Shown: positions 41,206 through 57,579 of the stretch, in pieces
Position numbering within the stretch: the stretch's first letter is position 1
Layout of the letters: the number at the start of each line of letters is the position of its first letter
Source of the DNA: Sphaerisporangium rufum
Lineage (GTDB): Bacteria; Actinomycetota; Actinomycetes; Streptosporangiales; Streptosporangiaceae
NCBI RefSeq assembly: GCF_016863395.1
Contig: NZ_BOOU01000031.1
Location: 1 to 64,000 of the forward strand
Length of the DNA stretch: 64,000 nucleotides
Reading direction: 5' to 3'
Translations under genes and position numbers: made by a program
Notes under the pieces: generated by a model
What the model was told of the DNA's origin: nothing
The model's input: the letters and a program-made list of their open reading frames with translations, nothing else
Database searches by the model: none

Positions 41206-41955
41206 TCAGCCTCCCTGGGTGTGGCGGTGCGCGGCGGTCTCGTCGGTGCGCGCCTCGCGGGCCGCCGGTTCGTGGCCGGCCACCCCGTCCTGGTGGCGGT
41301 CCCGCTCGTCCAGTCCGTCCCGGTCGGTGGCGTTCCGCCGGTCCAGGTCGTGCCGGTCGCCGGCGTCCAGGTCGGGCGGGCCGTCGAGGTCCCGGTGGTC
41401 ACCGGCCGGCGCGCGGCCCGGCGTGACGCTCTCCTCCAGCAGCTCCTCGAACAGCGCCCGGTAGTGCACCATGGCCTGCCGCAGCTCTTCGGTGGATGCC
41501 TCCTGGCGGGCGGCGCGGCTGCTGATCTCGTGCGCGCTGCGGTAGTGGTCCATCGTCGGCCCGTGCGCGACCGACAGGTCGGAGACCTGCTGCTCGAACC
41601 CCTCGGTCGGGTAACCGCGATCGGCCATGACGGCGGTCACCAGGTGATCGGCCTCGGTCACCGCGAACCCCGGGGCGTCGACGAACCGCTCCTGCACCTC
41701 GGTCCACTTCTTGGCGTAGGCCGTGCGGCTCTCCGGAGCCAGCGGCCTGATGTCCAGCTTGGCGTGGCGCTGCTCGCGCTCGATCAGCTCCTGCTCCGCC
41801 TCGCGGCGGTTCTCCCGCTCGCTGATCGTGCGGTCGTACTCCGGGCCGAAGCGCTCCTGCAGCCGCCGCCGGCGCTGCTGCCGGGTCAGCAGATAGCCGA
41901 CGACCAGGATCGCCACCACCGCGGCTACAACGACGGCCACCCAGGTGATGGTCAT
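41206..41955 (-). CDS. Membrane-anchored protein with helical domain and Asp/Arg-rich tail
   Basis: 249-aa protein. An N-terminal helix VAVVVAAVVAILVVGYLL anchors it in the membrane, followed by a basic stretch RQQRRRR and a coiled region. A helical domain about residues 85-185 (KWTEVQERFVDAPGFAV and LRQAMVHYRALFEEL) is shared with the neighbouring gene. The last about 60 residues are disordered and rich in Asp, Arg and His. Function unknown. The paralogous neighbour lacks the membrane helix, suggesting a membrane-bound and a soluble partner made together (6 bp gap). Confidence 0.72.
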   Translation of the reverse strand: MTITWVAVVVAAVVAILVVGYLLTRQQRRRRLQERFGPEYDRTISERENRREAEQELIEREQRHAKLDIRPLAPESRTAYAKKWTEVQERFVDAPGFAVTEADHLVTAVMADRGYPTEGFEQQVSDLSVAHGPTMDHYRSAHEISSRAARQEASTEELRQAMVHYRALFEELLEESVTPGRAPAGDHRDLDGPPDLDAGDRHDLDRRNATDRDGLDERDRHQDGVAGHEPAAREARTDETAAHRHTQGG

Positions 41956-42687: not shown

Positions 42688-42764
<77 letters not shown>

Positions 42765-42781: not shown

Positions 42782-42820
42782 AAGGGTGTCACGAGATCAC
42801 GTGACACCCTTTCTCTTTTC
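42782..42820 (+). terminator. Terminator of tRNA-Pro
   Basis: An 11-bp perfect stem (AAGGGTGTCAC / GTGACACCCTT) with an 8-base loop is followed by TCTCTTTTC, a true T-rich tail, 17 bp after the tRNA. Confidence 0.88.
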
Positions 42821-43578
42821 TGCGTGACCAGCCGGGTGACCGAGCGCGGGAGGCCCGGGCCTTCGCCTGGACGCTGCCCCCGGATATGGGCAGGATCCTC
42901 CTTCCGGCGCCCGGCCTTGGTTACCACTGGTGGCGCTGTGTCCCCCGAGGCCGGCGATGTCCAGCAGCGGGTCCTCGCCCCCGGGACGCGGCCGGGCGGC
43001 CTCTGGCCGGCCCCGAATCCATCGGGAGCGAACCCCCTGGATCCGGCAGCCGTCGAGAGCGAGGAAACGGCACGTCCATTAATGCGGTTAAATTCGGGTC
43101 GCGACCGGCTCGCACCTGAACTGCTGAGTAACTTGCCCGTTATGTGAAGAAACTAGGTGCGGAAGACCTGGTCGAGCACGTCCTGATGGGGGGGAGATCA
43201 CCCGCTTCAGGTATTTCATCCCCGAAGCGCTTTTCGTCCGTGATACTCCTTCTGTCGGATGTCGGCCCGGTTGACAGCCACCCGTGCACCCTTTTAAGGT
43301 AACGGCAGTCTGAGGGGCGGAGAGTAACGAACGCCGCTGGAAGCGTTACCTCGGTTCCTTGACCAAATGATCGGATTGGGGGGAGTTCGGGCACGTCGCG
43401 CGAGGGATCGGCAGTGATCGCCGTTGCGCCAGAATTTCGTATGGTCCTTTACCTGGCTTTCGGGTGAGGGATTTTTTTTGGGTGGCCGAACCGTCGTGGT
43501 CGGCCACTCAGCTGCGCCTAGATTCAGCACAGGCCGGTTGCATCGTCCAACGATCGAGCCATCTCTTCTGGGGAAGAA
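42821..43578. other. Intergenic region before the biosynthetic cluster, no clear gene
   Basis: About 760 bases without a convincing coding frame. The second half (about 43080-43560) is clearly AT-richer than the window average and holds runs such as GGTTAAATTC and GATTTTTTTTGGG. It probably contains the promoter and regulatory region of the StrR-like gene. No repeat of the tRNA 3' end or integrase remnant was seen. Confidence 0.6.
43271..43300 (+). promoter_or_regulatory. Promoter candidate upstream of the StrR-like regulator
   Basis: TTGACA at 43271-43276, an 18-bp spacer, and TAAGGT at 43295-43300 as -10. It lies 280 bp before the regulator start, leaving room for a long leader. No StrR-type palindrome was recognised around it. 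Confidence 0.35.
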
Positions 43579-44592
43579 ATGATCGTCGCTCTGTTGCCCG
43601 ATGTCGAACCCGAAGAGGTTCGTGAGCAAGGCCCGCCGTCCGAGGAACCGGTCTGGATTCCGCTCGACCTGGTCCGGCCCTCGGAATCGCCGCGTTCCGG
43701 TGGAATCAACCGGGAACACGTGGCACTACTGGCGGAAGCGGAGGCGGAACTGCCGCCGATCCTCGTACACAGATCCTCGTTGCGCGTCGTCGACGGGATG
43801 CATCGCCTGTGCGCGGCGCGGCTGCGCGGCGCACAGACCGTGGCGGTCCGCTTCTTCGACGGTGACGACGACGACGCCTTCGTGGCGGCCGTCCGGTCGA
43901 ACATCGCCCACGGTCTGCCGCTGTCGCTGGCCGACCGCACGGCCGCGGCGACGCGCATCATCAGGACGCGTCCGGACTGGTCGGACCGCATGATCGCTTC
44001 GGTGACCGGGCTCGCGCCGAAGACCGTCGGCGCGGTCCGGCGTTCGACCGGGGACGATGCGCAGTCGAACAGGCGGGTCGGCAGGGACGGGCGGGTACGT
44101 CCGGTCAACAACGCCGAGGGCAGACGCCTGGCGGGCGCGCTGCTGACGGAGAACCCGGACGCGCCGCTGCGGGAGATCGCCAGGGCCGCCGGAGTCGCTC
44201 CGTCCACCGTGCTGGACGTCCGGCAGCGCCTCGAACGCGGCGCCGACCCGGTACCGCCCCGCCTGCGCGACACCGAGTCGAGCGGGAGACGGACGGCGCG
44301 GAAGGCGCCGCCGCCCGCGCCGCGTGCCGGTGGGGGCGCCCCCCTGGACAAGGACTCGGTGCTGCGGAGTCTCCGGCGAGACCCCTCCCTGAGGTTCAGC
44401 GAGTTCGGCCGCGCGCTGCTGCGGCAACTCGACCTCGACCTCGCCGGCTCGGCCGGGTCGGGACGCGCCGCGGCCGCCGTGCCATCCCACTGTGTGGCCC
44501 GGGTGGCCACGCTGGCCAGGGAGAACGCCCGGTTCTGGGAGGAGTTCGCGCAGTCGCTGGACCAGCGCGCCCGCGCCATCGACCCCGCTTAG
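43579..44592 (+). CDS. StrR-like pathway-specific activator (ParB/Spo0J-like N-terminus)
   Basis: 337-aa DNA-binding regulator. The N-terminal half has the ParB-like fold: IPLDLVRPSESPRSGGINREH, then LPPILVHRSSLRVVDGMHRLCAARLRG. Two helix-turn-helix regions follow (RMIASVTGLAPKTVGAVRR and LREIARAAGVAPSTVLDVR). This is the layout of StrR, Bbr and NovG, which switch on streptomycin, balhimycin and novobiocin genes. The C-terminal part after a Pro/Arg linker is less conserved. It heads the cluster on the same strand and most likely activates it. Start ATG 43579 follows GGGGAAGAA. Confidence 0.88.
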   Translation: MIVALLPDVEPEEVREQGPPSEEPVWIPLDLVRPSESPRSGGINREHVALLAEAEAELPPILVHRSSLRVVDGMHRLCAARLRGAQTVAVRFFDGDDDDAFVAAVRSNIAHGLPLSLADRTAAATRIIRTRPDWSDRMIASVTGLAPKTVGAVRRSTGDDAQSNRRVGRDGRVRPVNNAEGRRLAGALLTENPDAPLREIARAAGVAPSTVLDVRQRLERGADPVPPRLRDTESSGRRTARKAPPPAPRAGGGAPLDKDSVLRSLRRDPSLRFSEFGRALLRQLDLDLAGSAGSGRAAAAVPSHCVARVATLARENARFWEEFAQSLDQRARAIDPA

Positions 44593-44811
44593 GGGCGCGA
44601 CCGAATCCCACGACCGGAGTCTCCCACCGGCCGGCCTTCGACACCCGGGGACAGGTCCTTCCAGGGCCGCCGGGCCGTCTCGTGCCCGCCGCCGGCCGCG
44701 CACGGCCGGCGGCGGGTTCGCGGCCGCGCCGCCGGCGGCAGCGAAAAGCAGTGTTCGAGTATTTCCCGCGCCGCCCGAATTCCCTCTCCGGGCGAATTGT
44801 GTAAAGTATTC

Positions 44812-44845
44812 CCGGTGCTCCGGGAAGCCGTTTCCCGGGCACCGG
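44812..44845 (+). other. Strong hairpin in the leader of the next gene
   Basis: Two 15-base arms (44812-44826 and 44831-44845) pair with one mismatch and two G-T wobbles around a GCCG loop. The hairpin ends about 35 bases before the TTG start of the small unknown gene and lies after AT-rich TTGTGTAAAGTATT, which may be part of its promoter. An attenuator, operator or mRNA-stability element is possible. A GTTCGAGT at 44753 resembles one half of a StrR site, but no proper second half is seen. Confidence 0.4.
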
Positions 44846-44879
44846 CCCTGGCCTCGACTATTGGGTGCGAGAGGTGAAC

Positions 44880-45302
44880 TTGTCTGTACCGGCGAAGATG
44901 TTCACCCAGCGTTCGGAAGTATTCGGGCGGTGGGTAGCCGTGATGGAACATCGGCGCGACGACCGCAAGATGGTCCCGGCGGCGTGGAAAACCCGTTGCA
45001 TACGTTCCGGCGACGTCCATGAATTCATCCTCTGCCGGCCGGGCGCCGACCGGGCGGCGGAGATGAACGACGTCTCCTACCTCGGCTTCGCCGAGATCGT
45101 ACGTGGTGGCGTGGTCGTGATCGGCGACGAAGTGCAGGTGTCGGGCCGGGTCGTCGGCACCGTCCACGGCTTCGACGAGACCCATTTCCCGAACCACTAC
45201 AACATCCTGATCGCCGCCGGAGAACTGGTCACCGGTGCCGAGATCGGCCTGGAGCTCGGCGAAGGAGTCACCTTCCGCCCGGCACCGGGCGCGTCCGCCT
45301 GA
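44880..45302 (+). CDS. Small unknown protein at the start of the cluster operon
   Basis: 140-aa protein (145 aa if GTG 44865 is used). It appears to be a compact beta-rich single domain without signal peptide: VAVMEHRRDDRKMVP, TRCIRSGDVHEFILCRPG, VRGGVVVIGDEVQVSGRVVG, GFDETHFPNHYNIL and VTGAEIGLELGEGVTFRP. The pattern is reminiscent of small accessory proteins encoded in natural-product clusters, but the family is not firmly recognised. TTG 44880 is preferred because GAGAGG lies five bases upstream. It is 85 bp before the PLP enzyme and probably co-transcribed with it. Confidence 0.65.
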   Translation: MSVPAKMFTQRSEVFGRWVAVMEHRRDDRKMVPAAWKTRCIRSGDVHEFILCRPGADRAAEMNDVSYLGFAEIVRGGVVVIGDEVQVSGRVVGTVHGFDETHFPNHYNILIAAGELVTGAEIGLELGEGVTFRPAPGASA

Positions 45303-45386
45303 CCGGTCGGCCACCGCGATCGACGACACCTCGGGCATCTGCCGCCGGCAGATGCACGACTACCGCGTGATGGGGGTTTTCGCATC

Positions 45387-46637
45387 TTGTCCGCAGTGAC
45401 GATCAACTACGAGAGCCTTATTCGCAAGAACCGCTCCGGCGCCTTATCCCCGGAAAAGTTCATCAAATTCGCCTGCATCGTATGCGAGCGGGAAATCGAT
45501 GATCCCCGGCGCAACCGGTGCCCAGACTGCAACGGCGCGGTCGACGCCATCTACGATCTGGACAACTTCGTCGCGCCCGAGACGCTCACCACGCCGAACA
45601 CCCTGCTCCGCTACTTCTCGCTGCTGCCGCTGAAGGAACGCGAGTCGGTGCACTGGCTCGGCGAGGGCAACACCCCCTGCTTCGAGGTGCCCGCACTCGC
45701 CGCCGAGCTGGGGGTCGGCCGGTTGTTCTTCAAGGACGAGTCGGCCAACCCGACGCGCTCCACCAAGGACCGCATCGCCTCGGTCGGCCTGTCCCACTTC
45801 ACCGAGCTCGGGGTGACCCGGCTCGTGCTGTCGTCGACGGGCAACAGCTCCACCGCCTACGCCCGCGGCGCGCAACTCGTCGACGGGTTCCAGATCCACA
45901 TCTTCGTCGGCCGCGACTTCGTGCACCGGCTCAACTACACCGACCACCCGGCGGTCCACACGCACGTCGTGGACGGCCCGTTCGTGGCGGCCGGCGGGGT
46001 CGCCCAGCGGTACGCCAGGGAGAACGGCATCGCCTGGGAGGGCGGCTTCTTCAACCTGTCCAGGCGGGAGGGACTCAAGCTCGCCTACCTGGAGGCGTTC
46101 GACGCGATGCCCGTCGAGCCGACGCACGTGTTCCAGGCGATCAGCAGCGGGATGGGCCTGCTCGGCGCCTACAAGGGCGCGCTGGAATATCGCGAGCTGG
46201 GCCGGCTGTCCCGGCTGCCGTCGTTCGTCGCGGTGCAGCAGGAGTCCTGCGGGCCGATGGCGCACGCGTTCACCGAGGGCGCCGAGACCATCGGGGAACG
46301 GCACATCGTCAAAAACCCCAGGGGCCTGGCGTACGCCATCTTGCGCGGCGACCCGACCCCCACCTACCCCTACGTCCGCGACCTGGTCCTGCAGAGCAGG
46401 GGCGGCATCGAGGCGGCGTCCGATCTGCGCATCCGCGAGGCCCACCGCATGCTGGCCGAGGTGGCCGGAGTGCGGGCCTGCTATGCCAGCGCGACCGCGT
46501 TCGCGGGCGCGGTCAAGATGGCGCGGGAGGGCCGGCTGGGCGAGGACTCGGTCCTGCTGGTCAACCTCACCGGCACCGACCGGCCGTCGCTGCCGGTGCC
46601 GACCCGGCTGACCGAGTGGTCGGAGAACGTGGCGTGA
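45387..46637 (+). CDS. Threonine synthase-like PLP enzyme with N-terminal zinc ribbon
   Basis: 416-aa fold-type II PLP enzyme. Four cysteines (C30, C33, C45, C48) form a zinc ribbon as in the long threonine synthases and archaeal cysteate synthase. The Schiff-base lysine is K127 in TRSTKDR, preceded by LGEGNTPCFEVP, and STGNSSTAYA binds the phosphate/substrate carboxylate. The usual GGG cofactor-phosphate loop is replaced by SSGMGLLGAYKG. It probably performs beta/gamma-replacement or elimination on a phosphorylated or O-activated amino acid to give an unusual amino acid. Housekeeping threonine synthesis is unlikely, as hom and thrB are absent. TTG start; the next gene overlaps the stop (GTGA). 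Confidence 0.82.
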   Translation: MSAVTINYESLIRKNRSGALSPEKFIKFACIVCEREIDDPRRNRCPDCNGAVDAIYDLDNFVAPETLTTPNTLLRYFSLLPLKERESVHWLGEGNTPCFEVPALAAELGVGRLFFKDESANPTRSTKDRIASVGLSHFTELGVTRLVLSSTGNSSTAYARGAQLVDGFQIHIFVGRDFVHRLNYTDHPAVHTHVVDGPFVAAGGVAQRYARENGIAWEGGFFNLSRREGLKLAYLEAFDAMPVEPTHVFQAISSGMGLLGAYKGALEYRELGRLSRLPSFVAVQQESCGPMAHAFTEGAETIGERHIVKNPRGLAYAILRGDPTPTYPYVRDLVLQSRGGIEAASDLRIREAHRMLAEVAGVRACYASATAFAGAVKMAREGRLGEDSVLLVNLTGTDRPSLPVPTRLTEWSENVA

Positions 46638-48313
46638 CGAACTTGATGGAGCCGGGACCGGCCGCCGCCGCGGACGTCCGGACCACCACGACCGTGGCCG
46701 ACGTCGTGTTCACCGGCCTGGCGCAGGCCGGGGTGAGGACGGTCGTCGGGTTCCCCGGCGAGACCTCGCTGCCGCTGTACGTCGCGGCGCAGCGCCAGGA
46801 CGCGGTCCGGCACGTCATGGCCCGCTGCCCGCGCTGCGCCGGCTACATGGCCGAAGCGTACGCGAGGGTGTCCGGCGAGGTCGGCGTGTGCGACGCGCCG
46901 GGCGGCATCGGCTCGCCGTTCACCACGCCCGCGCTGCTGGAGGCCTACAACAGCTCGACCCCGCTGGTGTTCGTCGCCAGCGGGGTCGCCCGGGACAAGC
47001 GGGGCCGTTGGACCACCGGCGAGTGCGCCCAGCAGGAACTGTTCGGCGCGGTGGCCAAGAGCACCGTCCGGCTGGAGCTCCCCGACGGTGCGGCCGCTCG
47101 GGTGGCGAGCGCCGTGCACGCCGCGGCGTCCCCGCGCGGCGGCCCGGTGTTCGTCGAGGTGCCTTCGGACGTCCTCACCCTGCCCGCCGGCGGCGGGCCG
47201 TCCGGCGCGGCCGCGCCCGCGCGCGGGCGGTTGCGCGCGGCACCGGCCGCCGACGTCGTCGCCGGGGTGGCCAAGCTACTGCGGGACGCCGGCCGGGCGG
47301 TCGTCGTCGCGGGCGGCGGCGTGCACGCCGGGGACGCGACCGGCGCGCTGCGCGAGCTGATCGCGCGGACCGGCCTGCCGGTCGCGACCACCCTCAACGG
47401 CAAGGCGGCGGTGGACGAGCGGCTGCCCAGTGCCCTCGGCGTCACCGGGGCCAAGGGCGGCCTGGCCGCCAACCGGTACATCCACCAGGCCGACGTGATC
47501 GTCGCCATCGGCACCAAGCTCGGTGACAAGTCCACCGACAAGTACCGCTGGCCTCACGCGGGACAGGTGCTCGTGCACGTCGACTCCGACGCCGGTGAGC
47601 TCGACCGGTTCGGGCACCCGAGCCTGCCCGTGCTCGCCGACGCGGGCGAGTTCTGCCGGGCGCTGACCGGGGAACTGTCCGGCTTCCGCTACCAGGGACC
47701 GGTATTCCGGCCGGAACCGCCGTTCTGGTCGTCCGGGCTGACCGACCACCTTTGCCGCAGGCTCACCGCCGGCCTCGGCGACGCCGACGTGGTGGTGGCC
47801 GACGCCAGCGTGTCCAGCGGCTGGGCGGGCGCGGCGGTGCGGATGCGCGGGGCCCGGCAGCGGCTGCTGACGCCCCGCGGCAGCGGCAGCATCAGCTACG
47901 CGCTGCCCGCCGCGCTCGGCGCGAAGCTCGCCCGCCCGCACGCCCGGGTCTTCGGCATCGGCGGCGACGGCGGCCTGTCGATCGCCATGCACGAGATGGA
48001 GACCGCGGTCCGCCTTGACCTGCCGGTCACCTACTTCCTCCTGAACAACGAGCGGCTCGGCCTGATCGACCGGCACGCCGTGGACCTGCTCGGCGGCCGT
48101 CCGGTGAGCGCGGAGTTCACCTCGATCGACTGGCAGGCGATCGCCTCCGCGTTCGGCTGGCGCTCGGCGCGGGTGCGCGACGCCGGCGAGCTCGACGCCG
48201 TCTGGGACACCGTGTGCGACGGCGCCCGCCCGACCCTGGTCGAGTGCGTCGTGCCCGCCGACGAGAGCGCCCCCGACCTGGTTCTGACCCTGCGAGGAGA
48301 AGAGGACGCATGA
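46634..48313 (+). CDS. Thiamine-diphosphate-dependent enzyme, acetolactate synthase-like
   Basis: 559-aa protein with all three ThDP-enzyme domains. The catalytic Glu is in VVGFPGETS (about residue 43); the ThDP/Mg motif runs from GDGG (about 443) to LLNN. Reactions of this class are decarboxylation or carboligation of 2-oxo acids. The Pyr domain is unusual: the ALS stretch RHEQGA is replaced by MARCPRCAG and GPGATN by GGIGSPFTTP, so it is not a housekeeping acetolactate synthase. Sulfopyruvate- or phosphonopyruvate-decarboxylase-like, or carboxyethyl-transfer (CEAS-like), roles are possible. GTG start overlaps the PLP enzyme; the stop overlaps the ligase (ATGA). Confidence 0.85.
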   Translation: MTNLMEPGPAAAADVRTTTTVADVVFTGLAQAGVRTVVGFPGETSLPLYVAAQRQDAVRHVMARCPRCAGYMAEAYARVSGEVGVCDAPGGIGSPFTTPALLEAYNSSTPLVFVASGVARDKRGRWTTGECAQQELFGAVAKSTVRLELPDGAAARVASAVHAAASPRGGPVFVEVPSDVLTLPAGGGPSGAAAPARGRLRAAPAADVVAGVAKLLRDAGRAVVVAGGGVHAGDATGALRELIARTGLPVATTLNGKAAVDERLPSALGVTGAKGGLAANRYIHQADVIVAIGTKLGDKSTDKYRWPHAGQVLVHVDSDAGELDRFGHPSLPVLADAGEFCRALTGELSGFRYQGPVFRPEPPFWSSGLTDHLCRRLTAGLGDADVVVADASVSSGWAGAAVRMRGARQRLLTPRGSGSISYALPAALGAKLARPHARVFGIGGDGGLSIAMHEMETAVRLDLPVTYFLLNNERLGLIDRHAVDLLGGRPVSAEFTSIDWQAIASAFGWRSARVRDAGELDAVWDTVCDGARPTLVECVVPADESAPDLVLTLRGEEDA

Positions 48314-49572
48314 GCATTCTGGTACTGCACACGCAGAACGCGAGCCGGCGCCGGCACTTCGCCCGCGTCCAGGAGTACGCCAGGCGGCACGGCGAGCGCC
48401 TGCTGCTGATCGTCAAGAACCCCACCTGGGAGACCGACTTCGTCGACCGGGTGTGGCCGGCGGACACCTCCAGCATCTCCGACACCGTCGATGCCGCCCG
48501 GCGGCTCGCCGCCGAAGAGGAGGAGCCGATCCGCGCGGTCGTGGCGTTCGTGGAGCACAGCGTGCCCGCCGCCGCGGCCGTCGCCGAGGAGCTGGGCCTG
48601 CCCTTCGTCAGCCCCCGTACCGCGCAGATCGCCCGGGACAAGTACGCGATGCGCCGGGCGTTCGAGGTGGCCGGGCTGCCGCAGCCGGGCTTCGGTCTGG
48701 CCAGGACCCTGGACGAGGCCCGCGAGGCGGCCGGGCGCATCGGCTTCCCGCTGGTGATGAAGCCGCTGATCGGCGGCGGCAGCATGTACGTGCGCCGGGT
48801 GAACGACCTCGACGAGCTCACCGAGCACTTCGAGCCGATCCGCCGCGGCTCGTGGGACGGTTTCGACTACGACCCGCTGTACGCCTCCGCCATGGCCGAG
48901 TACCGGGGCGCGCTGCTGCTGGAGGGCTACCTGCCGGGCGCGGAGATCAGCGTCGAGTCGATGGTCGTCGACGGCGTGACCAAGGTCGTCGCGATCCACG
49001 ACAAGCCGCTGCCGATGAACGGCCCGTTCTTCGAAGAGGTCTACTACGTCACGCCGACCTCGCTGCCGGCCGAGGTCGTCGCGCGGGTGCACGAGATCAC
49101 CGCCAGAGCGCACGAGGCGCTGGGCATCACGATGGGCGCCACCCACACCGAGTTCCGCGTCCAGGAGGGCGAGGAGCCGAAGATCCTGGAGACCGCGGCC
49201 CGGCTCGGGGGCGGCCCCATCTACCAGTCGCTGCTGCTCAGCACGGGTATCGACATGGTCGAGGCGCTGTGCGACGTCGCCTTCGGCCGGGCGCCGGACC
49301 TGACCCCGCGGCGGCCGGTGACCCCCACCGGGTTCTCCCTGTTCTTCGCCGAGAAGGCAGGGCGGATCAAGGCGATCCACGGCGTCGGCGAGGCGCTGGC
49401 CGACCCGGACGTCCAGGAGCTGCTGCTCTACCGCGAGGTCGGCGACGGGGTGAACGTCCCGCCGCACGTGTGGCAGGCGCATGGCCACGCAATCTTCACC
49501 GCCCGGACGCAGGCCGAACTCGGCGACGTCTTCGACCGGCTCGCCAAGACCATCCGCTTCGAAGTCGAATGA
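48310..49572 (+). CDS. ATP-grasp carboxylate-amine ligase 1
   Basis: 420-aa enzyme of the ATP-grasp superfamily that would activate a carboxylate as acyl phosphate and join it to an amine. Domain order: N-terminal Rossmann-like part (ILVLHTQNASRRR), central lid with PLVMKPLIGGGSMYV, and C-terminal Mg/ATP part with LLEGYLPGAEISVESMVVDG, THTEFRV and PKILETAARLGGG, which hold the metal ligands Glu/Glu/Asn-equivalents. It resembles the DdaF/BacD/BtrJ type used in short peptide antibiotics. It is preceded by a 4-bp overlap with the TPP gene. Substrate unknown. Confidence 0.87.
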   Translation: MSILVLHTQNASRRRHFARVQEYARRHGERLLLIVKNPTWETDFVDRVWPADTSSISDTVDAARRLAAEEEEPIRAVVAFVEHSVPAAAAVAEELGLPFVSPRTAQIARDKYAMRRAFEVAGLPQPGFGLARTLDEAREAAGRIGFPLVMKPLIGGGSMYVRRVNDLDELTEHFEPIRRGSWDGFDYDPLYASAMAEYRGALLLEGYLPGAEISVESMVVDGVTKVVAIHDKPLPMNGPFFEEVYYVTPTSLPAEVVARVHEITARAHEALGITMGATHTEFRVQEGEEPKILETAARLGGGPIYQSLLLSTGIDMVEALCDVAFGRAPDLTPRRPVTPTGFSLFFAEKAGRIKAIHGVGEALADPDVQELLLYREVGDGVNVPPHVWQAHGHAIFTARTQAELGDVFDRLAKTIRFEVE

Positions 49573-49632
49573 CCCGACGGCCCGGGCGGGACGGACGTGC
49601 CCGCCCGGGCCCCTCACCTGTGGGGACCCTTC

Positions 49633-50838
49633 ATGCTCGAACGCTCGACCAGGAAGTTCATCGCCGTCACCCGGGTCGTCACCAGCCTGGGTTACTACCT
49701 GACCATCCCGTTGCTCGGCGTCATCGCGCTGAGGGCGGGTTCGATGTCCGCGGTCGAGGTCGGCGCGCTGGTATCCGCGCACGCGCTGTTCCGCCGTGGG
49801 CTGGCGCTGCCCACGGGCGTGCTGTGCGACCGGTGGGGCGGCGAGCGGGTGCTGGTGGCGGGTCTGGTGGCCGAGGCGGTGGGGTATGTCCTGCTCGCCT
49901 CGTCGATCACCTTCCCGGTCTGGCTCGCGGCACTGGTGATCGACGGCGCGGGCGGCGCCGCGTACAACTCCGCCGGCCGGGTGGTGCTGGCGAAAGCGTC
50001 GAAGGAGGGCGGCAGCGCCGCGAGCTTCGCGGGCTTTTATGTGGCGACGAACGTCGGTGCACTGCTCGGGCCGCTGCTCGCCGCGGCCCTGAGCGCGCAC
50101 GGCTCGCCGCGCGCCGCCCTGCTGCTGTCCGCGCTGGCCTACGCGTGCGCCGCGGCCGGAGCGCTGTGGCGGTTCCGCACGGTGGACCGGAGCAGGCCGG
50201 TCACGGCGGCGGGCGGCAGTGTGTGGCGTTCACTGGTCGGCCCGCTGGGCGATCGGCTCTTCGTGGTGTACTGCGCGATGACGGTGCCGCTGTGGTTCGG
50301 CATCTCGCTGCTGGTGTCCGCGCTGCCGCTCGAGGCGGACCTCCGCGGCCTCGGCTACGTCGACGTCGGCGTGATCAACTCGCTGAACGCGCTGGTGGTC
50401 GTCGCCCTCGGCACCAAGGTCGGCAAGATCACTGATGGCTGGGACCTGCCGCGGCGCATGCGTTTCCTCGGCGCGGGCGGGTTGGCGATGGCGGCCGGCT
50501 GCCTGGTCTGCCTGCCGGCCGGCACGCCCTGGCTGTACGCCGGCATGGTGGTGATCACGCTCGGCGAGCTCGCACTGATCGCCGCGACCGACATCGTCGC
50601 CGTGCACCTGGCGCCCGAGGGCTCGACCGGGGTGTATCTCGGCTACGTCACCACCGCGTGGGCGGTCGGCGGGGTGCTGGCCGGGGTGCTGGCGGGCGCG
50701 CTGCTCGACGGCTCAGGCCCCGGCCGGGTCGTCTTCTGGGCGGTGAGCACCGCGCTGCTGCTGGGCGCGGCCGTGTGGTTCACCGTCGCCGGCCGCGCGG
50801 TCACCGCCCGCGCGGCGGCGGGCGCCGCCCGTACCTGA
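49633..50838 (+). CDS. MFS transporter of the biosynthetic cluster
   Basis: 401-aa membrane protein with about 12 hydrophobic segments. Motif A reads GVLCDRWGGERVLV in loop 2-3. It begins with a short cytoplasmic tail MLERSTRKFIAVTRVV and TM1 SLGYYLTIPLLGVIAL. Its place between the two ligases suggests it exports the cluster product or confers self-resistance. Start ATG 49633 follows GGGGA; 60 bp separate it from ligase 1. Confidence 0.88.
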   Translation: MLERSTRKFIAVTRVVTSLGYYLTIPLLGVIALRAGSMSAVEVGALVSAHALFRRGLALPTGVLCDRWGGERVLVAGLVAEAVGYVLLASSITFPVWLAALVIDGAGGAAYNSAGRVVLAKASKEGGSAASFAGFYVATNVGALLGPLLAAALSAHGSPRAALLLSALAYACAAAGALWRFRTVDRSRPVTAAGGSVWRSLVGPLGDRLFVVYCAMTVPLWFGISLLVSALPLEADLRGLGYVDVGVINSLNALVVVALGTKVGKITDGWDLPRRMRFLGAGGLAMAAGCLVCLPAGTPWLYAGMVVITLGELALIAATDIVAVHLAPEGSTGVYLGYVTTAWAVGGVLAGVLAGALLDGSGPGRVVFWAVSTALLLGAAVWFTVAGRAVTARAAAGAART

Positions 50839-50883
50839 ACGCGAACCTGGGGGCGGCCCCTACGAGTGGGAGGAGATGGGATC

Positions 50884-51639
50884 ATGCGTTTCGGCAGGGT
50901 GGTGCACGCCGGCGGCACGAGCTACGTCGAGGTGCGCGAGCAGACCGCGATCGAGCTCGAGTGCGCGCCGTTCGGCGGCGTCCGGCCTACCGGGCGGGCC
51001 TGGCCGCTCGACTCGGTGCGGCCACTCGCCCCGGTCGAACCGACCAAGATCATTGGAGTCGGCCGGAATTACCACACCGGGGCCGAGCCCGCCGTGGCGG
51101 ATCCCGGCGAGCCGCTGGTGTTCGGCAAGCCGCCCTCGAGCGTGATCGGACCCGGCGCGCCGATCGTGCTGCCCGCCGGCGCGGGACAGGTCGACTTCGA
51201 GGGCGAGATCGCCGTGGTGATCGGCGTCCGGTGCCGCTCGGTACCGCGGGAGCGGGCCCTGGACGTCGTCTTCGGCTGCACGATCGCCAACGACGTCACC
51301 TCGCGCGAGCACCAGAGATCCGACGGGCAGTGGACGCGGGCCAAGGGCTACGACAGTTTCTGCCCGCTCGGCCCGTGGGTGCGCGCCGGATTCGACGCCT
51401 CGGACGTCGAGGTCCGCACCCTGCTGGACGGCGTGGTGCGGCAGAAGGAACGCAGCAGCTCGATGATCCACGACATTCCCACCCTGGTGGCCTGGTGCTC
51501 GGAGGTCATGACGCTGGAGCCGGGTGACGTCATCCTGTCCGGCACGCCCGCGGGCACCGGCCCACTCGCCCCGGGCCAGGAGGTCGTGGTGGAGGTCGAC
51601 GGGCTCGGGGCGCTGGCGAACCCGGTCGTGGCCGGGTGA
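50884..51639 (+). CDS. Fumarylacetoacetate hydrolase (FAH) family enzyme
   Basis: 251-aa FAH-fold protein. The metal-binding set is VDFEGEIAVVIG and CTIANDVTSREHQR, followed by GYDSFCPLGPW, DVILSGTPAGTG and the C-terminal GLGALANPV. Members hydrolyse C-C bonds of acylpyruvates, decarboxylate oxaloacetate or hydrate/isomerise 2-oxo acids. In this cluster it probably acts on a 2-oxo-acid intermediate related to the TPP enzyme. ATG 50884 follows GGAGGAG. Its last codons overlap the HAD gene start (GTGA). Confidence 0.9.
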   Translation: MRFGRVVHAGGTSYVEVREQTAIELECAPFGGVRPTGRAWPLDSVRPLAPVEPTKIIGVGRNYHTGAEPAVADPGEPLVFGKPPSSVIGPGAPIVLPAGAGQVDFEGEIAVVIGVRCRSVPRERALDVVFGCTIANDVTSREHQRSDGQWTRAKGYDSFCPLGPWVRAGFDASDVEVRTLLDGVVRQKERSSSMIHDIPTLVAWCSEVMTLEPGDVILSGTPAGTGPLAPGQEVVVEVDGLGALANPVVAG

Positions 51640-52334
51640 CCGCGCCGCCCGCCGTAGGGGCGGTGAGTTTCGACATCGACGACACGCTCATCGACTACTC
51701 GGCCTCGGTGCCGCACAGCCTGCGCGAGCTGTTCGGCCCCGAGGCCGACCCCGGGCTGTGGCAGGCGCTGATCGACGCGCTGTACCCGCGTTACCTCGCC
51801 GGCGGGCTGACGCACGAGGCGTACCTGCGCACGCGCCTGGCGGCCATGCTCACCGCGCTGGGCCGCCCGGTGCCAGGCGCCGCCGGGCTCGATGAGCTGG
51901 AACGGCGGCGCAGGACGGCGGCGGAGTCGCGGCTGCGGCTCTATCCGGACGTGCCCGGCTGCCTGGCCGCCCTGCGCGAGGCGGGCCTGCCGCTGGCCCT
52001 GCTGTCCAACGCGGACGGCCCGCGGCAGCGGCGGCGGCTGGACGTCGTCGGCCTCACCGGCCTGTTCGACGCCATCGTGATCTCCGGCGAGTCCGGGGTG
52101 GCCAAGCCCGATCCGGCCGCGTTCGGCCTGGTGCGCGCCCGCCTGGGGGTCGACCACGTCGTGCACGTCGGGGACGACCCCGCGGCGGACGCGCGGGGCG
52201 CGCTCGGCGCGGGGTTCCTGCCGGTCCTCGTCGACCGGGCCGGGCGGACCCGGGCGGTCCCGCCGGGCGTCCTGCGGGTCGGGGATCTGCGGGCGGTGCC
52301 CGCACTGCTGGAGCACGTGGGAAGGGGAGTGTGA
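51636..52334 (+). CDS. HAD-superfamily hydrolase (probable phosphatase)
   Basis: 232-aa haloacid-dehalogenase-like enzyme. Nucleophile and acid are D13 and D15 in FDIDDTL; motif II is LLSNAD, motif III Lys in GVAKPDP and motif IV VHVGDDPAAD. An alpha-helical cap lies about residues 20-90. Such enzymes mostly remove phosphate from small metabolites, and here a phosphorylated pathway intermediate is likely. GTG start overlaps the FAH stop by 4 bp. Confidence 0.9.
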   Translation: MTAPPAVGAVSFDIDDTLIDYSASVPHSLRELFGPEADPGLWQALIDALYPRYLAGGLTHEAYLRTRLAAMLTALGRPVPGAAGLDELERRRRTAAESRLRLYPDVPGCLAALREAGLPLALLSNADGPRQRRRLDVVGLTGLFDAIVISGESGVAKPDPAAFGLVRARLGVDHVVHVGDDPAADARGALGAGFLPVLVDRAGRTRAVPPGVLRVGDLRAVPALLEHVGRGV

Positions 52335-52335
52335 G

Positions 52336-53532
52336 ATGCACATGCTGCTGGTCGGCGCGTGGCCGGAGCTGGCGAACCAGCTGGTCGGGCTGCCCGCGCG
52401 GGTTTCGCTGCTGCAGCAGCCCAAGTCGGTGGACGGGCGGGAGCAGGAGTGGGCGCACCGCTACGTCGAGGTCGAGTACGGCGAGGTCGACGCGGCCGTC
52501 GCGGTGGCGGAGCGGATCCACCACCAGGACCCGGTGGACGTCGTGGTGGGCTTCCGGGAGTTCGCGCTGCCCGCGGTCGCCGCGATCGCCCGGGCTCTGG
52601 ACCTGCCCAGCGTGCCGGGACCGGTGGACACTCTCGGCCTGGACAAGGCGGAGGTGCGCGACCTGATCCGGGACGGCGCCGCCCGCGTCGTACGGCACCG
52701 GGTGTGCCGGACCGAGCAGGACGTGCACGGGTTCGCCGCGGAGGCCGGCTTCCCGCTGATCCTCAAGCCGGCCGGGGGCGCGGGCAGCATCGGCGTGCAC
52801 GCGGTGCGGGACGCCGCCGGGCTGGCCGACGCGTGGCGGCACGCGAGCGCGGCGGCGGCCGGCGCGGCGGTGCTGGCCGAGGAACTGGTGACCGGTCCCG
52901 AGTACAGCGTGGAGACGCGATCGGCCGGCGGACGGCACGAGGTGGTCGCGGTGACCGAGAAGCTGACCACCGGGGCGCCGCACTTTGTCGAGGTCGGTCA
53001 CCTGGTGCCCGCCCGGCTGCCCGCGCGCGTCGCCGAGACGCTCGGCGCCGAGGCGCTGCGTGCGGTCGCCGCGACCGGGCACCGCACCGGCCCGTGCCAC
53101 GTCGAGCTGATCCTCACCGGTGAGGGCCCGGCGATCGTGGAGATCAACCGGCGGCCGGGCGGCGACCGCATCTGGGAGCTGGTCCGCCTCGCCACCGGGC
53201 GGGACATCATGGCCGAGTCTTTGTGGGACGCCGCCGGCGCCGAGCCGCCGATCGGCACGCGCTCGGCGGCCGCCGCGATCCGCTTCCTGACGCCCACGGG
53301 CCCGGCCACTGTCGCCGAGGTGCTGCCGCGGGACGCGGCGATCGGGGTGCCGGGCTTCCTGCGCGGCGTGATCTCCGTACCGGGACCGGGCGCCGAGGTC
53401 GAGCCCGCCTCCTCGTCGCTGGGCAGGTTCGGGTACGTCCTGGTGGCCGGGGCGGACGCCGAGTCGGCGGCGGCCGCCGCCGAGCAGGCCCGGGCACGTG
53501 TGGACGAGGAATTGTTCGTCCCCCGGCCCTAA
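52336..53532 (+). CDS. ATP-grasp carboxylate-amine ligase 2
   Basis: 398-aa ATP-grasp enzyme with a different N-terminal part from ligase 1: MHMLLVGAWPELANQLV and VVVGFREFALPAVAAIA. ATP-binding region: FPLILKPAGGAGSIGVHAV; metal region: CHVELILTGEGPAIVEINRR with Glu and Asn in place, then PGGDRIWEL. It resembles BtrJ/LdmS-like amino-acid ligases. With ligase 1 it could build a tripeptide, or the two could act at different steps. It directly follows the HAD gene (1 bp gap), is last in the operon, and has no obvious terminator. Confidence 0.86.
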   Translation: MHMLLVGAWPELANQLVGLPARVSLLQQPKSVDGREQEWAHRYVEVEYGEVDAAVAVAERIHHQDPVDVVVGFREFALPAVAAIARALDLPSVPGPVDTLGLDKAEVRDLIRDGAARVVRHRVCRTEQDVHGFAAEAGFPLILKPAGGAGSIGVHAVRDAAGLADAWRHASAAAAGAAVLAEELVTGPEYSVETRSAGGRHEVVAVTEKLTTGAPHFVEVGHLVPARLPARVAETLGAEALRAVAATGHRTGPCHVELILTGEGPAIVEINRRPGGDRIWELVRLATGRDIMAESLWDAAGAEPPIGTRSAAAAIRFLTPTGPATVAEVLPRDAAIGVPGFLRGVISVPGPGAEVEPASSSLGRFGYVLVAGADAESAAAAAEQARARVDEELFVPRP

Positions 53533-53737: not shown

Positions 53738-54976
53738 TCAGGCGCCTGCCTTCTCGCTCAGCTCATCGCTGTCGGGGTCCACGGCCGCGCGGGCCGTGAT
53801 GCGGCGTTCTTTGAGGATGAACGCCAGGGCGAAACCGGCGGTGACCAGCACGGCCAGGATGACGAACACCCACCGGACGCCGCCGTGGTCGGCGATCTCG
53901 CCCAGCAGCGGGCTGACGACGCCGCCCAGCGAGAGCGTCAGGCCGAGCGTGATGCCCGAGGCGACCCCGATGCGGCCTGGCAGGTAGGAGTGCGACAGCG
54001 TGATCTGCGCGGCGAAGGGGACGAACAGGCTCACCCCGAGTGCCGCGGTCGCGACGATCACGACCGCCGGAGTCGGGGCGAGGACGATCGCACCGGTGGA
54101 CAGCGCGGCCAGTAGATAGCCGGTGCGCACGACCCGCAACCGTCCGAACCGGTCGGCCAGCCATCCACCGGCCAGCGTGCCCGCCGCCCCTGCCGCCGGG
54201 AAGACCGACAGCGCGATCGAGGCGAACTCCGGCGACGTGCCGAATCGTTGAATGGCGTACAGCGATACGAACGTCGACGTGCCGACGAATGTGATCGACC
54301 ATGTCGCCAGCACCAGCGTGAGCCAGCCGAACGCCCGCCAGTCATCGCCGGCCTGGTGCTGGGTCGCGGTCGCACGCCCGATGGCCGCGGTGGCGCCGGT
54401 CGCGGAGAACAGGTGCCGCCACGACACCGCGGCGTACACGAGACCGAACACTACGGCGGGTATCACCAGCAGCGCGGTGCCGTTCAAACCGAACCGGCCA
54501 ACGACGAGGATCACCGCCGACGGCGCGAGGGCGCCGCCGAGGTTCCCGCCGACGGAGAACAGGCTCATCGCCCCGCTGGTGCCACCACCGGCTCTGCGGG
54601 CTTCCATAGTCGCGGCGGGGTGGTACGCGGCCACGCCGATGCCGGAGACGGCGATCACGATCCACACCGCCGGATACGACTCCGACACCAGGCCGCTCAG
54701 CGCCACGCCGATGCCGGCGGTCAGCAGGCCGGCCAGACTCATCCAGGGCATCCCGAACCTGTCGCTGAGATGCCCGAAGATCGGCTGCGCGACGCTGGAC
54801 AGCGCGGTGGCGGCGAGGGTGACCCCGGCGACGGCGGCGTAGGTGTAGCGCGCGTGCAGGACGAAGAACGGCAACAGGGCCGCCACGGCACCGGTGTAGA
54901 AGTCGTTCGCGCCATGGGTCGCGGTCAGCGCCCACAGGCCCGCCCTGCCGGGCGCGGGAGAGGTGGTCGTGCTCAA
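53738..54976 (-). CDS. MFS transporter, Fsr (fosmidomycin-resistance)-like
   Basis: 412-aa, 12-TM exporter. The start ATHGANDFYTGAVAALLPFF matches the Fsr group, where HxxNDxxxGxxxxLLP is typical, and GHLSDRFGMPW is MFS motif A. TTG 54976 is chosen because GAAAGGA lies six bases upstream and the frame upstream looks non-coding. It is divergent from a GntR-family regulator gene that probably controls it. It may or may not belong to the cluster ending at 53532, with which it converges. Confidence 0.88.
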   Translation of the reverse strand: MSTTTSPAPGRAGLWALTATHGANDFYTGAVAALLPFFVLHARYTYAAVAGVTLAATALSSVAQPIFGHLSDRFGMPWMSLAGLLTAGIGVALSGLVSESYPAVWIVIAVSGIGVAAYHPAATMEARRAGGGTSGAMSLFSVGGNLGGALAPSAVILVVGRFGLNGTALLVIPAVVFGLVYAAVSWRHLFSATGATAAIGRATATQHQAGDDWRAFGWLTLVLATWSITFVGTSTFVSLYAIQRFGTSPEFASIALSVFPAAGAAGTLAGGWLADRFGRLRVVRTGYLLAALSTGAIVLAPTPAVVIVATAALGVSLFVPFAAQITLSHSYLPGRIGVASGITLGLTLSLGGVVSPLLGEIADHGGVRWVFVILAVLVTAGFALAFILKERRITARAAVDPDSDELSEKAGA

Positions 54977-55204
54977 CGGGATTCCTTTCGACGGGGATCG
55001 CGCGCGTAGCGCGCACCCGAGGGCTCGCGGCATGGACGGCATGGTGCAACCGGAAGGGGGCGGCACAGGGATGGGGAAGACCGGCGGGAAGAGCCGCTCC
55101 GCAACAGGGGCGCCGACGCGCCTAAGCCCTGTTGCGGCAGACAAGTAGCCGTCCGCACATGGGATAGACTGTACACGATTCCTCAGACAAGTAGAGAGGT
55201 AGCG

Positions 55205-55879
55205 ATGGCGCAGATCAGACGGGCGCCGCTCGCGGACCAGGCGGCCGAGGCCCTCCTTGAGCGCATCCGCGCCGGCGAGTGGCCCCTGGGGGCGAAGCTG
55301 CCCGGCGAGACGACCCTCGGCCCGCAGCTGGGCGTCGGCCGCTCGACCGTGCGCGAGGCCATCCGGCAGCTCGCGGGCCGAGGAGTCCTGGAGTCACGGC
55401 AGGGCGCGGGTGTGTTCGTCACGGCGCTCGATGTCACCGAGGACTGGAACGCCGTCATGCGGCGCGCCGGGATCATCTCGGTGATCGAGGCGCGTATCGC
55501 GATCGAGGCCGAGGCCGCCGCCCACGCCGCCGCGCGACGTACGCCGCAGGCGCTGCGCGCGATCCGCCGCGCGCTGGCCGATCGCCAGGAGCGACGCGGC
55601 AGCACGGAGGACCACGTGGACGCCGACATGGCCTTCCACCGCGCCATCGTCGCCGCCGCCGGCAATCCCGTCCTCCTGGAACTCTTCGACACCTTCGTGC
55701 CGAGGCTGCGCCAGGCGATGATCGACATGCTCCGCATCGGCCGGAGCCTCTCCGTAGAGCGAGACCAGGCGGCGCACGCCGATCTGGCGGAGGCGATCGC
55801 CGCGCGCGACGCCGACGCCGCGCGCCGCCTCAGTCGCGCCCATCTGGAATCCCTTGAGAGCGCGCTGCGCCGGTCCTGA
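55205..55879 (+). CDS. GntR/FadR-family transcriptional regulator
   Basis: 224-aa regulator: winged helix-turn-helix about residues 5-70 (LGPQLGVGRSTVREAIRQLAGRG) and a C-terminal FCD ligand-binding domain (FHRAIVAAAGNP and HADLAEAIAARDADAAR, with the metal-binding Asp/His positions of FCD). It is divergent from the Fsr-like MFS gene. The 228 bp between them include GATAGACTGTACACGATT, which may hold an operator, but the dyad is imperfect. Confidence 0.9.
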   Translation: MAQIRRAPLADQAAEALLERIRAGEWPLGAKLPGETTLGPQLGVGRSTVREAIRQLAGRGVLESRQGAGVFVTALDVTEDWNAVMRRAGIISVIEARIAIEAEAAAHAAARRTPQALRAIRRALADRQERRGSTEDHVDADMAFHRAIVAAAGNPVLLELFDTFVPRLRQAMIDMLRIGRSLSVERDQAAHADLAEAIAARDADAARRLSRAHLESLESALRRS

Positions 55880-55940
55880 CGCCGACCGGCCCGGGGTCGG
55901 CAGGACGCGTTCCCGAACGCCGCGATCCACCGGCCGGCGG

Positions 55941-56333
55941 AGGACGGGTTTGTGGAAGGCTCGGCCACGTCCTACGCTTGCCGCACGCCTGGCCGCGCCG
56001 GAGACGACGGCCGACGACCTGGCCGCGATGCGCGCGGCGAACGAGGCGTTCATCCAGGCGCTCGACGCGAACGACGCCGTCGCGGCGCTGGCGGCGGACG
56101 ACCGGTTCCACGCCGTGGCGGTGCACCGCTGCGGCGACTCGGCCATCGAGGCGACGATCGGCCGCTTCACCCCCGTCGTCCGCCGGCTGGAGCACCAGCG
56201 CTTCGCCTCCCCCGCCGCGCGCCACTCCGTGGCCCGGCACCAGCAGATCATCGAAACCTGCGAGCAGCGCGACGGCCCGCTGGCGGCCCGCCGGGTGGAC
56301 GAGGCCTGGTGCACCTTGCTGCGGGAGCTGTGA
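55941..56333 (+). pseudogene. Remnant of a second GntR/FCD regulator, HTH missing
   Basis: The C-terminal half of an FCD domain is readable: AAMRAANEAFIQALDANDAVAALAADDRFHAV (in pieces AAMRAANEAF and DDRFHAV), RRLEHQRF and ARHQQIIETC. The winged helix-turn-helix that should precede it is absent, and the upstream sequence does not continue it in any frame. The family assignment rests on the DDRFHxxxxxxC/N and HxxIIxAC patterns. It lies directly behind the intact GntR gene, but the sequences differ, so it is a separate, broken gene. Confidence 0.6.
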
Positions 56334-56408
56334 CCGAGTTCTCGTGCTTCCGCCCGCCGGCGGTCAGGTCGGGGCGGTTCTCGACGGCCAGGGCGTCGGC
56401 TCCCGTAG

Positions 56409-56648
56409 GTGCCGATCAACTTGTCGGTCTTCTCGGCGCCGGTGAAGAACGCGGCCGGGCGCGACAAGCCGAGCTGGGCCGTGATCGCGACCGAGGACAG
56501 GGCGTTCGACCAGGCGATGCTGCAGCACATGGCCAAGCGCATCGGTGCGAAGATCACTGAGGTCCCGGCGAGCCACGCCCGGTACGCGACGCGGGCCGGT
56601 ACCGTCGCCGACGTCATCGTCGCCGCCGCGCAGCACGCTCTCGGCTGA
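56409..56648 (+). pseudogene. C-terminal fragment of an alpha/beta hydrolase
   Basis: The frame encodes about 79 residues like the end of an alpha/beta hydrolase of the kind found widely in actinobacteria: INLSVFSAPVKNAAG, KPSWAVIATEDRAFD, and ITEVPASHARYATRAG. The last block should carry the catalytic His (SHA), with Asp/Glu in TEDRAFD. The nucleophile Ser elbow and two thirds of the protein are missing. It is a decayed gene. Confidence 0.6.
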
Positions 56649-56835
56649 CCGGCGGCCGCACCATCCGGGCCGGCTCGCGAGTCCCCGGAACGTGAGCCGG
56701 ACTTCGGCGCCATCGGCGCCTCCAAGGCGCGCTCGCTCGGTGCCGGCGCGCGCCTTGAAAGCCGATGGGGCACCCGGTGAAGGTGAGAGATCAAGGTGGC
56801 CGGTCCGCGCGGTTCCCGCGAGGGCGGGCCGGTCG

Positions 56836-57579
56836 CTACAGGGTGACCGGCCGGCCCGGGGGCGGGGAGAGCAGGAGGTCGGTCAGGCCCGCCTCGGCGA
56901 AGGCGGCGTGGACGTCCGGCGGGCCCTCGGTGAAGTGGGCCCAGCCCTCGACGTGCAGCGGAACCACCTTTCCGGCCTTCAGCAGGCGGGCGGCGGCCGC
57001 CATGCCGGCGGCGTCCAGGGTGAGCGGCTCGTCGAACATCGGCGCCCGGGCGGCGCCGCCGAACAGCAGCGCGACGTCGACGGCCGGGAACCGGGCGGCG
57101 ACCGCCTCCACGTGCTCCAGCGCGGCGTTGTCCCCGCTGATGTAGACGGTGGGCAGCCCGGCGCCGGTCAGCACGAAGCCGGTGACCTGGCCGACGACGG
57201 GCTCGCATCCCGGCGGGCCGTGCCGGGCGGGCACGGCGGTGACGCGGACCGGGCCGATGTCGTGGTGCTGCCACGGGCGCAGCGGGGTCGCCCCGGTACG
57301 CGCGGCGGCCTCGGGCGTGGTCAGGGTGAGCGGCGCGGCGGCCATCACCTCGCGCCCGAGGTCGTCGAGGTTGTCGGGATGCTGGTCGTGGCTGAGCAGC
57401 ACCAGGTCCACCCGGCCGGCGCCCGCGGGGGGCACCGCCGGGCCGGTGGTCTTGGTGAGGGTGAGCGGCCCGGCGGGGTGCTCGCCCGGCGGGTCGAAGG
57501 TCGGGTCGGTGAGAATGCGCAGGCCGCCCAGTTCCAGCAGGGCGGTCGGACCGCCGATCACGGTGATCGTGGCCGTCAT
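56836..57579 (-). CDS. Metallo-beta-lactamase-fold hydrolase, UlaG-like
   Basis: 247-aa soluble MBL-fold protein, close to the UlaG/YfhI-type group. N-terminal ITVIGGPTALLELGGLRILTDPTF is typical; metal site LLSHDQHPDNLD (HxxxHxDN form), VPARHGPPG, and YISGDNA are present. The final His is in LHVEGWAHF. Substrate unknown. ATG 57579 has GGAG-like bases upstream. It stands alone, separated by 307 bp of non-coding DNA from the PixA operon. Confidence 0.85.
   Translation of the reverse strand: MTATITVIGGPTALLELGGLRILTDPTFDPPGEHPAGPLTLTKTTGPAVPPAGAGRVDLVLLSHDQHPDNLDDLGREVMAAAPLTLTTPEAAARTGATPLRPWQHHDIGPVRVTAVPARHGPPGCEPVVGQVTGFVLTGAGLPTVYISGDNAALEHVEAVAARFPAVDVALLFGGAARAPMFDEPLTLDAAGMAAAARLLKAGKVVPLHVEGWAHFTEGPPDVHAAFAEAGLTDLLLSPPPGRPVTL

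Follow-up and report, generated by a model that had tools for sequence, protein, structure and literature searches.

A candidate two-ligase peptide cluster in a strain-variable region of Sphaerisporangium rufum

What might be made by an actinomycete operon that joins two ATP-grasp ligases to a pyridoxal 5'-phosphate (PLP) enzyme and a thiamine diphosphate (ThDP) enzyme behind a StrR-like regulator? Such a set of nine genes lies at positions 43579-53532 of a 64,000-nucleotide stretch of Sphaerisporangium rufum DNA (contig NZ_BOOU01000031.1; the whole stretch is hereafter called the window). We consider it fairly probable that the locus is an uncharacterised, strain-variable cluster in which the two ligases would build a short peptide around a non-proteinogenic amino acid. 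We infer both the kind of product, a di- or tripeptide antibiotic, and the substrates from which it would be made.

Two predicted ligases behind a StrR-type regulator

The nine open reading frames (ORFs) are all open, intact and on the plus strand at the positions given by an earlier, sequence-only reading of this DNA, with the regulator gene at 43579-44592 ahead of eight structural genes packed into 44865-53532. The features of the locus, including the tRNA gene at its left border, are as follows.

42688-42764, plus strand: tRNA-Pro (GGG), left border of the variable region with the cluster (ARAGORN)
43579-44592, plus strand: predicted StrR-type pathway activator, 337 aa (homology to a streptomycin-type regulator; HTH_AsnC over cut-off)
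44042-44070, plus strand: StrR operator GTTCGActG(N)11CagTcGAAc, 17/18 positions, within the regulator gene (consensus scan)
44865-45302, plus strand: DUF6917 protein, at most 145 aa, start codon uncertain (PF21891, E 1.6e-43)
45335-45355: perfect 10-bp inverted repeat between the DUF6917 and PLP genes (script search)
45387-46637, plus strand: fold-type II PLP enzyme, 416 aa, TTG start uncertain (PALP, 4.9e-43)
46634-48313, plus strand: acetolactate-synthase-family ThDP enzyme, 559 aa (three ThDP domains, Pfam)
48310-49572, plus strand: predicted ATP-grasp L-amino acid ligase 1, 420 aa (ATP-grasp_4, 9.1e-21; LAL_C2, 6e-15)
49597-50838, plus strand: predicted major facilitator superfamily (MFS) exporter, 413 aa (MFS_1, 3.6e-40)
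50866-51639, plus strand: fumarylacetoacetate hydrolase (FAH)-superfamily hydrolase, decarboxylase or isomerase, at most 257 aa (FAA_hydrolase, 6.7e-64; Rv2993c-like_N, 1.8e-11)
51636-52334, plus strand: haloacid dehalogenase (HAD)-IA hydrolase, probable phosphatase, 232 aa (Hydrolase, 2.8e-24; TIGR01549 over cut-off)
52336-53532, plus strand: predicted ATP-grasp L-amino acid ligase 2, 398 aa, right end of the operon (ATP-grasp_4, 3.9e-17; LAL_C2, 2.4e-12)

Pfam and homology searches confirmed the families of the eight plus-strand genes and of the StrR-like regulator that precedes them. The gaps between the structural genes are, in order, 84, -4, -4, 24, 27, -4 and 1 bp; the operon is thus as compact as had been proposed, although the number of junctions that overlap or lie within 60 bp is six of seven and not five. 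Start codons are uncertain for several of the nine genes. The GC content of the set falls inside the range of the whole window, and seven of the nine ORFs pass a codon-position GC filter, the two that fail being those for DUF6917 and for the ThDP enzyme (the ThDP ORF was taken from the earliest start codon possible). The absence of non-ribosomal peptide synthetase or polyketide synthase genes was likewise upheld, with no condensation, adenylation, carrier or ketosynthase domain found by Pfam in the nine proteins. The inverted repeat at 45335-45355 may be an operator or an attenuator.

Both ligases carry ATP-grasp_4 and LAL_C2 over cut-off and are by domain predicted to be L-amino acid ligases (LALs), which agrees with the earlier call of two ATP-grasp ligases. 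The best solved match of both is the L-amino acid ligase BL00235, and ligase 1 also matches BacD. They share with BacD and DdaF, the ligases of bacilysin and dapdiamide synthesis, the LAL-type ATP-grasp fold of amide ligases; however, ligase 1 lies far under the equivalog cut-offs for these proteins (BacD, 81.5 of 850 bits; DdaF, 27.2 of 840 bits), and the accessory genes differ from those of the known clusters. Plasmid matches to both ligases were all below 60% identity.

The regulator is predicted to be a StrR-type pathway activator. Over 92% of its length it shares 50.2% identity with a protein that carries the annotation 'streptomycin biosynthesis protein' and whose gene is flanked by DegT/StrS-type aminotransferase and inosamine-phosphate amidinotransferase genes. 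Pfam returned only helix-turn-helix (HTH) matches, one of which (HTH_AsnC) is over cut-off, and a solved-structure search gave nothing lower than E 0.49. The operator within its gene conforms to the StrR consensus given in an excerpt of PMC8306873 and is the sole match in the 64 kb at three or fewer mismatches, where a mean of 0.02 would be expected (100 shuffles); the gap at 44593-44865 holds no good StrR box, the best being 10/18. In-gene boxes of 15 or 16/18 are also present in three of eight other StrR-like genes (L089, L093 and L096), 442 to 496 bases from the gene start, compared with 463 in the window, and the other five contain no box of 14/18 or better in the stretches read. In the streptomycin-type gene L089, both arms are altered together (GTTCAA with TTGAAC), so that the palindrome is kept while one Ser codon becomes a Leu codon, as judged by eye. 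StrR-type control, as first proposed, is supported by homology together with a near-perfect operator. The similarity to the StrR of streptomycin clusters extends to the 50% identity and to a box at about the same place in the coding sequence, but none of the eight downstream genes resembles an aminoglycoside gene by Pfam.

The PLP enzyme, the ThDP enzyme and DUF6917

The PLP enzyme has the fold-type II PALP domain and the N-terminal four-cysteine motif of threonine and cysteate synthases, and it had been described as threonine-synthase-like. This label does not hold: the best threonine synthase model reaches 151.6 bits against a cut-off of 303 (NCBIfam equivalog) and the cysteate synthase model TIGR03844 reaches 121.2 bits against 324.9, and the enzyme belongs instead to a distinct, uncharacterised subfamily. 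It lacks the SFKDR lysine loop and the NS.VNP.R motif of threonine synthase, the latter of which has a phosphate-binding role; in their place are STKDR, where the known synthases have SFKDR or SFKAR, and EGGFFN..RREG. The pattern EGG..N..RR is also found in the solved cysteate synthase. A housekeeping threonine synthase was rejected on the missed cut-offs and on the presence of three other paralogues in the same genome (28-32% identical), and a plain cysteate synthase on its low score.

In a 20-row tree, a well-supported group of 16 rows is separate from the three own-genome paralogues and one Bacteroidota protein, long branches being flagged for these four outsiders and for L074. Within the group, the lysine loop reads STKDR in 11 members, TTKDR in four and STKAR in one, compared with SFKDR or SFKAR in the outsiders, and 15 of the 16 have EGG where the threonine-synthase-like paralogue L138 has NS; the signatures of the subfamily are thus [ST]TKDR and EGGFFN..RREG. 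Searches covered 345 genomes of the same order (own included), a class sample of 394 and a phylum sample of 396. PLP relatives at E ≤ 1e-40 occur in 11 of the 345 same-order genomes, and all plasmid matches were below 60% identity. A contig scan, which requires exact 8-residue matches and can therefore miss members, found five loci, the best from Streptacidiphilus pinicola (66%), the protein of which pairs with that of the window in the tree (support 99/99).

The ThDP enzyme is of the full-length acetolactate synthase type, with all three ThDP domains over cut-off. Its Pro66 aligns with the Glu of RHEQGA in E. coli acetolactate synthase I, which we take to be the catalytic Glu and which all 11 other relatives compared retain. 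The ThDP-binding stretch GDG...NN is intact. BbmA/CsmA is named among the solved relatives of the enzyme. Relatives at E ≤ 1e-60 occur in nine of the 344 other same-order genomes, by far the best being that of genome G251 from another genus (1.3e-100, 41%; the next is 9.8e-67), in which a closely similar stretch reads CERCAG where the window has CPRCAG. No relative at E ≤ 1e-70 was found in the 393 other genomes of the class sample, and tblastn against plasmids at 1e-40 gave no match. Glyoxylate carboligase is a ThDP enzyme of the same superfamily that works without this Glu, with Val at the position where the window enzyme has Pro; the window enzyme, however, scores nearer the acetolactate synthase models than the glyoxylate carboligase model.

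DUF6917 (PF21891), encoded by the first of the eight structural genes, is absent from the title of the sequence-only reading. It occurs in 53 of the 345 same-order genomes, in no other genome of the phylum sample and on two of 72,556 plasmids. On one of these, from Streptomyces, a single 775-aa ORF consists of DUF6917 followed by a 1-deoxyxylulose-5-phosphate-synthase-like (DXS) part (L086:11980-14307); on the other, from Thermomicrobium roseum, DUF6917 adjoins a ThDP gene. Proximity to ThDP genes is seen at L033, L034, L035, L037-L039 and L087. We put forward the hypothesis that DUF6917 is a partner of ThDP enzymes, for which the L086 fusion is the best backing. The usual setting of DUF6917 comprises all four of the MocA, AP_endonuc_2, M20 and Ldh_2 genes (46 of 52 other same-order loci, including the three DXS cases L037-L039). 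This conserved cluster (L036-L054 and L097-L125) often also includes DegT aminotransferases and UbiA, or DXS, in the loci inspected. In the ORF at L033:7838-9724, DUF6917 is C-terminal; this ORF has a P-loop (GNKGAGKTT) and on visual inspection resembles an HPr kinase, and its upstream part has no Pfam match. A solved-structure search with DUF6917 gave only E 0.44 and 0.76, and a single-sequence structure model had a mean predicted local distance difference test (pLDDT) score of 41.3.

Distribution of the cluster and its relatives

The cluster is strain-variable and starts just past tRNA-Pro, where synteny stops. All 11 genomes of the genus have the gene at 41209-41955, to the left of this tRNA, and DNA alignment with five same-genus loci ends at 42818-42828 in two, at 42762 in one and at about 42000 in two, with no alignment to the right of 42828 (20-kb stretches were fetched, and matches of 70 bases or fewer were not listed). 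None of the 10 other genomes of the genus has the PLP gene at E ≤ 1e-40. A search of the window's plus strand for a second exact copy of the final 14 bases of the tRNA found none, and a mobile unit is therefore not defined.

Beyond the genus, G251 (loci L033 and L140) is the only other of the 345 same-order genomes with both PLP (E ≤ 1e-40) and ThDP (E ≤ 1e-60) relatives. Its relatives of the PLP enzyme (44%), HAD protein (33%), DUF6917 (39%) and acetolactate-synthase-type ThDP enzyme (40%) lie within about 17 kb of one contig (757.8-775.2 kb), with a split transketolase between the PLP and HAD genes. These four genes probably represent a functional core. Unlike the window, G251 lacks relatives of the LAL and FAH genes at E ≤ 1e-3 across the 76 kb searched, and the locus carries, besides the split transketolase, PurA-like, methyltransferase and PPDK-like genes. 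In a third genus, the PLP relative at L074:2855-11450 is accompanied by two LALs, an MFS gene, a second PALP enzyme and an ornithine-cyclodeaminase-like gene just under the Pfam cut-off. The latter pair resembles SbnA and SbnB of 2,3-diaminopropionate synthesis, and the product of that cluster is possibly a diaminopropionate peptide.

AMP-binding-type activating enzymes are encoded at 11 of the 15 other loci of the PLP subfamily and LALs at one. Two further loci (L073 and L078) were missed by both AMP-binding tests, yet large ORFs there grouped with AMP-binding proteins. The same broad AMP-binding profile was positive at none of five core-genome control loci, at one of eight StrR loci and at 38 of 51 DUF6917 loci, and because of this last figure the association of the PLP subfamily with AMP-binding enzymes is suggestive only. 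The subfamily may supply a building block to amide-forming enzymes. Around the PLP enzymes of L065-L070 and L075, which come from several genera, genes for AMP-binding, DAO-type oxidase and class III aminotransferase proteins recur with varying membership.

Several of these comparisons weigh against a single peptide pathway encoded by all nine genes. The sequence-only reading had listed the separate occurrence of the genes in relatives among the observations that would refute it, and this is partly what is seen. At 13 of the 15 other PLP loci, some of them as short as 4.6 kb, not one of the other eight genes of the set lies near the PLP gene at E ≤ 1e-4, the two exceptions being L074 with its two LALs and L033 with DUF6917 and HAD genes; on the other side stand the four relatives clustered in one other genus. 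No searched genome showed the whole nine-gene set. Conservation therefore gives no proof that these genes act in one pathway, and the FAH gene and both LAL genes are tied to the remainder by operon spacing alone. The closest PLP relative (L075, 66%) is located in a different cluster. The tree places the PLP protein of G251 in a different sub-group from that of the window, which means that the two loci cannot be read as plain copies of one cluster. The DUF6917 control weakens the AMP-binding association of the PLP subfamily, narrow queries having given 0 of 51 such loci and the broader profile 38 of 51. The proximity of DUF6917 to ThDP genes is not the rule: with six ThDP query sequences on the fetched flanks, some on short contigs, matches were found at six of 52 other same-order DUF6917 loci and at none of 23 control loci, a difference too small to prove anything. 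Finally, the FAH, HAD and MFS proteins belong to generic families, and the ThDP enzyme, with Pro in place of the catalytic Glu, could be inactive.

On its right, the operon is followed by an MFS gene on the opposite strand (53738-55144). The right flank (53738-57792) is also non-syntenic and encodes, in addition to this minus-strand MFS protein, a GntR/FCD-type regulator sequence and a metallo-beta-lactamase-fold protein. A minus-strand ORF at 60273-62252 has a weak AMP-binding match (18.5 bits, under cut-off).

Possible pathways and their meaning

If the ThDP enzyme were inactive through loss of its Glu, the locus would be a decaying cluster. The conservation of this residue in all relatives compared and its retention in the closely similar stretch of the nearest one favour such decay, but the nine open frames, most of which pass the codon-position filter, the intact ThDP-binding stretch and the activity of glyoxylate carboligase without this Glu argue against it, and we regard it as unlikely. 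A catabolic or detoxification operon that holds two ligases by chance is a different proposition. Degradation operons commonly contain FAH, HAD, ThDP and MFS genes, and at L034 the neighbours of DUF6917 (a ThDP gene, solute-binding transport genes and a GntR regulator of the FCD type) look catabolic; the StrR-type regulator with its operator, the two LALs and the position in a strain-variable region fit this poorly, and we give the proposition little credence.

Two further explanations keep the peptide and change its headgroup. For a sulfonate peptide, the PLP enzyme would be a cysteate synthase that joins O-phosphoserine and sulfite, and the ThDP enzyme would act on sulfopyruvate; the mid-region EGG..N..RR of the PLP enzyme indeed fits the solved cysteate synthase chain better than threonine synthases, and the TIGR03844 model does match. 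However, this match is far under its cut-off and is exceeded by that of the threonine synthase model, the ThDP enzyme is built as a full-length acetolactate synthase, unlike the split sulfopyruvate decarboxylase of coenzyme M synthesis, and no sulfonate gene was recognised by Pfam among the nine proteins, which makes a sulfonate product quite improbable. A phosphonopeptide cluster resembling those of phosphonoalamide, rhizocticin or valinophos, for which genes at another place in the genome would form the C-P bond, would account for the two ATP-grasp ligases, a feature of phosphonoalamide synthesis in an excerpt of PMC11867202, and the ThDP enzyme could use phosphonopyruvate. The genome itself, however, has no phosphoenolpyruvate (PEP) mutase over cut-off (the best match has 145.6 bits, the cut-off being 319.55, and six of 14 control genomes likewise give under-cut-off matches), nor is one present among the nine proteins; a phosphonate origin was rejected on these grounds and is very unlikely.

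We therefore return to the peptide built around a non-proteinogenic amino acid, for which the following course may be envisaged. The activator would bind the box at 44042 and switch the operon on. The PLP enzyme would catalyse a beta- or gamma-replacement or an elimination on a phosphorylated amino acid, for example O-phosphoserine or O-phosphohomoserine, and the ThDP enzyme, assisted by DUF6917, would form or cleave a C-C bond of the resulting 2-oxo acid or aldehyde. The HAD protein may take off a phosphate, and the FAH-fold enzyme may hydrolyse or decarboxylate an oxo-acid intermediate. One ligase would then form a dipeptide that the other couples to the headgroup, in the manner of PnaC and PnaB, and the MFS protein would export the product.

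A close parallel is the phosphonoalamide cluster. According to an excerpt of PMC11867202, PnaC forms dipeptides and PnaB couples them to the headgroup, so that convergent two-ligase assembly of a tripeptide is established; this Streptomyces cluster (PnaA, PnaD and the two ligases) has, like the window, two distinct ATP-grasp ligases together with dedicated enzymes for the headgroup amino acid. The window differs in the absence of a PEP mutase, its candidate headgroup genes being those for the PLP, ThDP, DUF6917, FAH and HAD proteins. The cluster is, in this comparison, a variant of known two-ligase peptide clusters such as that of phosphonoalamide, without the PEP mutase. As the sequence-only reading had stated, no characterised cluster was recognised as having this gene set in the open-licence literature, judged mostly by titles and the starts of abstracts, and nothing on the function of DUF6917 was found there. 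A bolder version, in which the new PLP subfamily feeds a Glu-less ThDP enzyme with DUF6917 as its partner domain in a new route to an amino-acid warhead, which the two ligases then build into a peptide, seems to us rather doubtful.

Peptides built by ligases are small and easily missed, since their clusters have no giant assembly enzyme as a marker. The signatures [ST]TKDR and EGGFFN..RREG offer a handle for related pathways beside AMP-binding enzymes or LALs. If the proposal is true, ThDP enzymes would have in DUF6917 a partner domain that had so far gone unrecognised. One operon here unites an uncharacterised PLP subfamily, a Glu-less ThDP enzyme and DUF6917 under a regulator with an identifiable operator, and this arrangement makes the product and the three enzyme functions directly testable.

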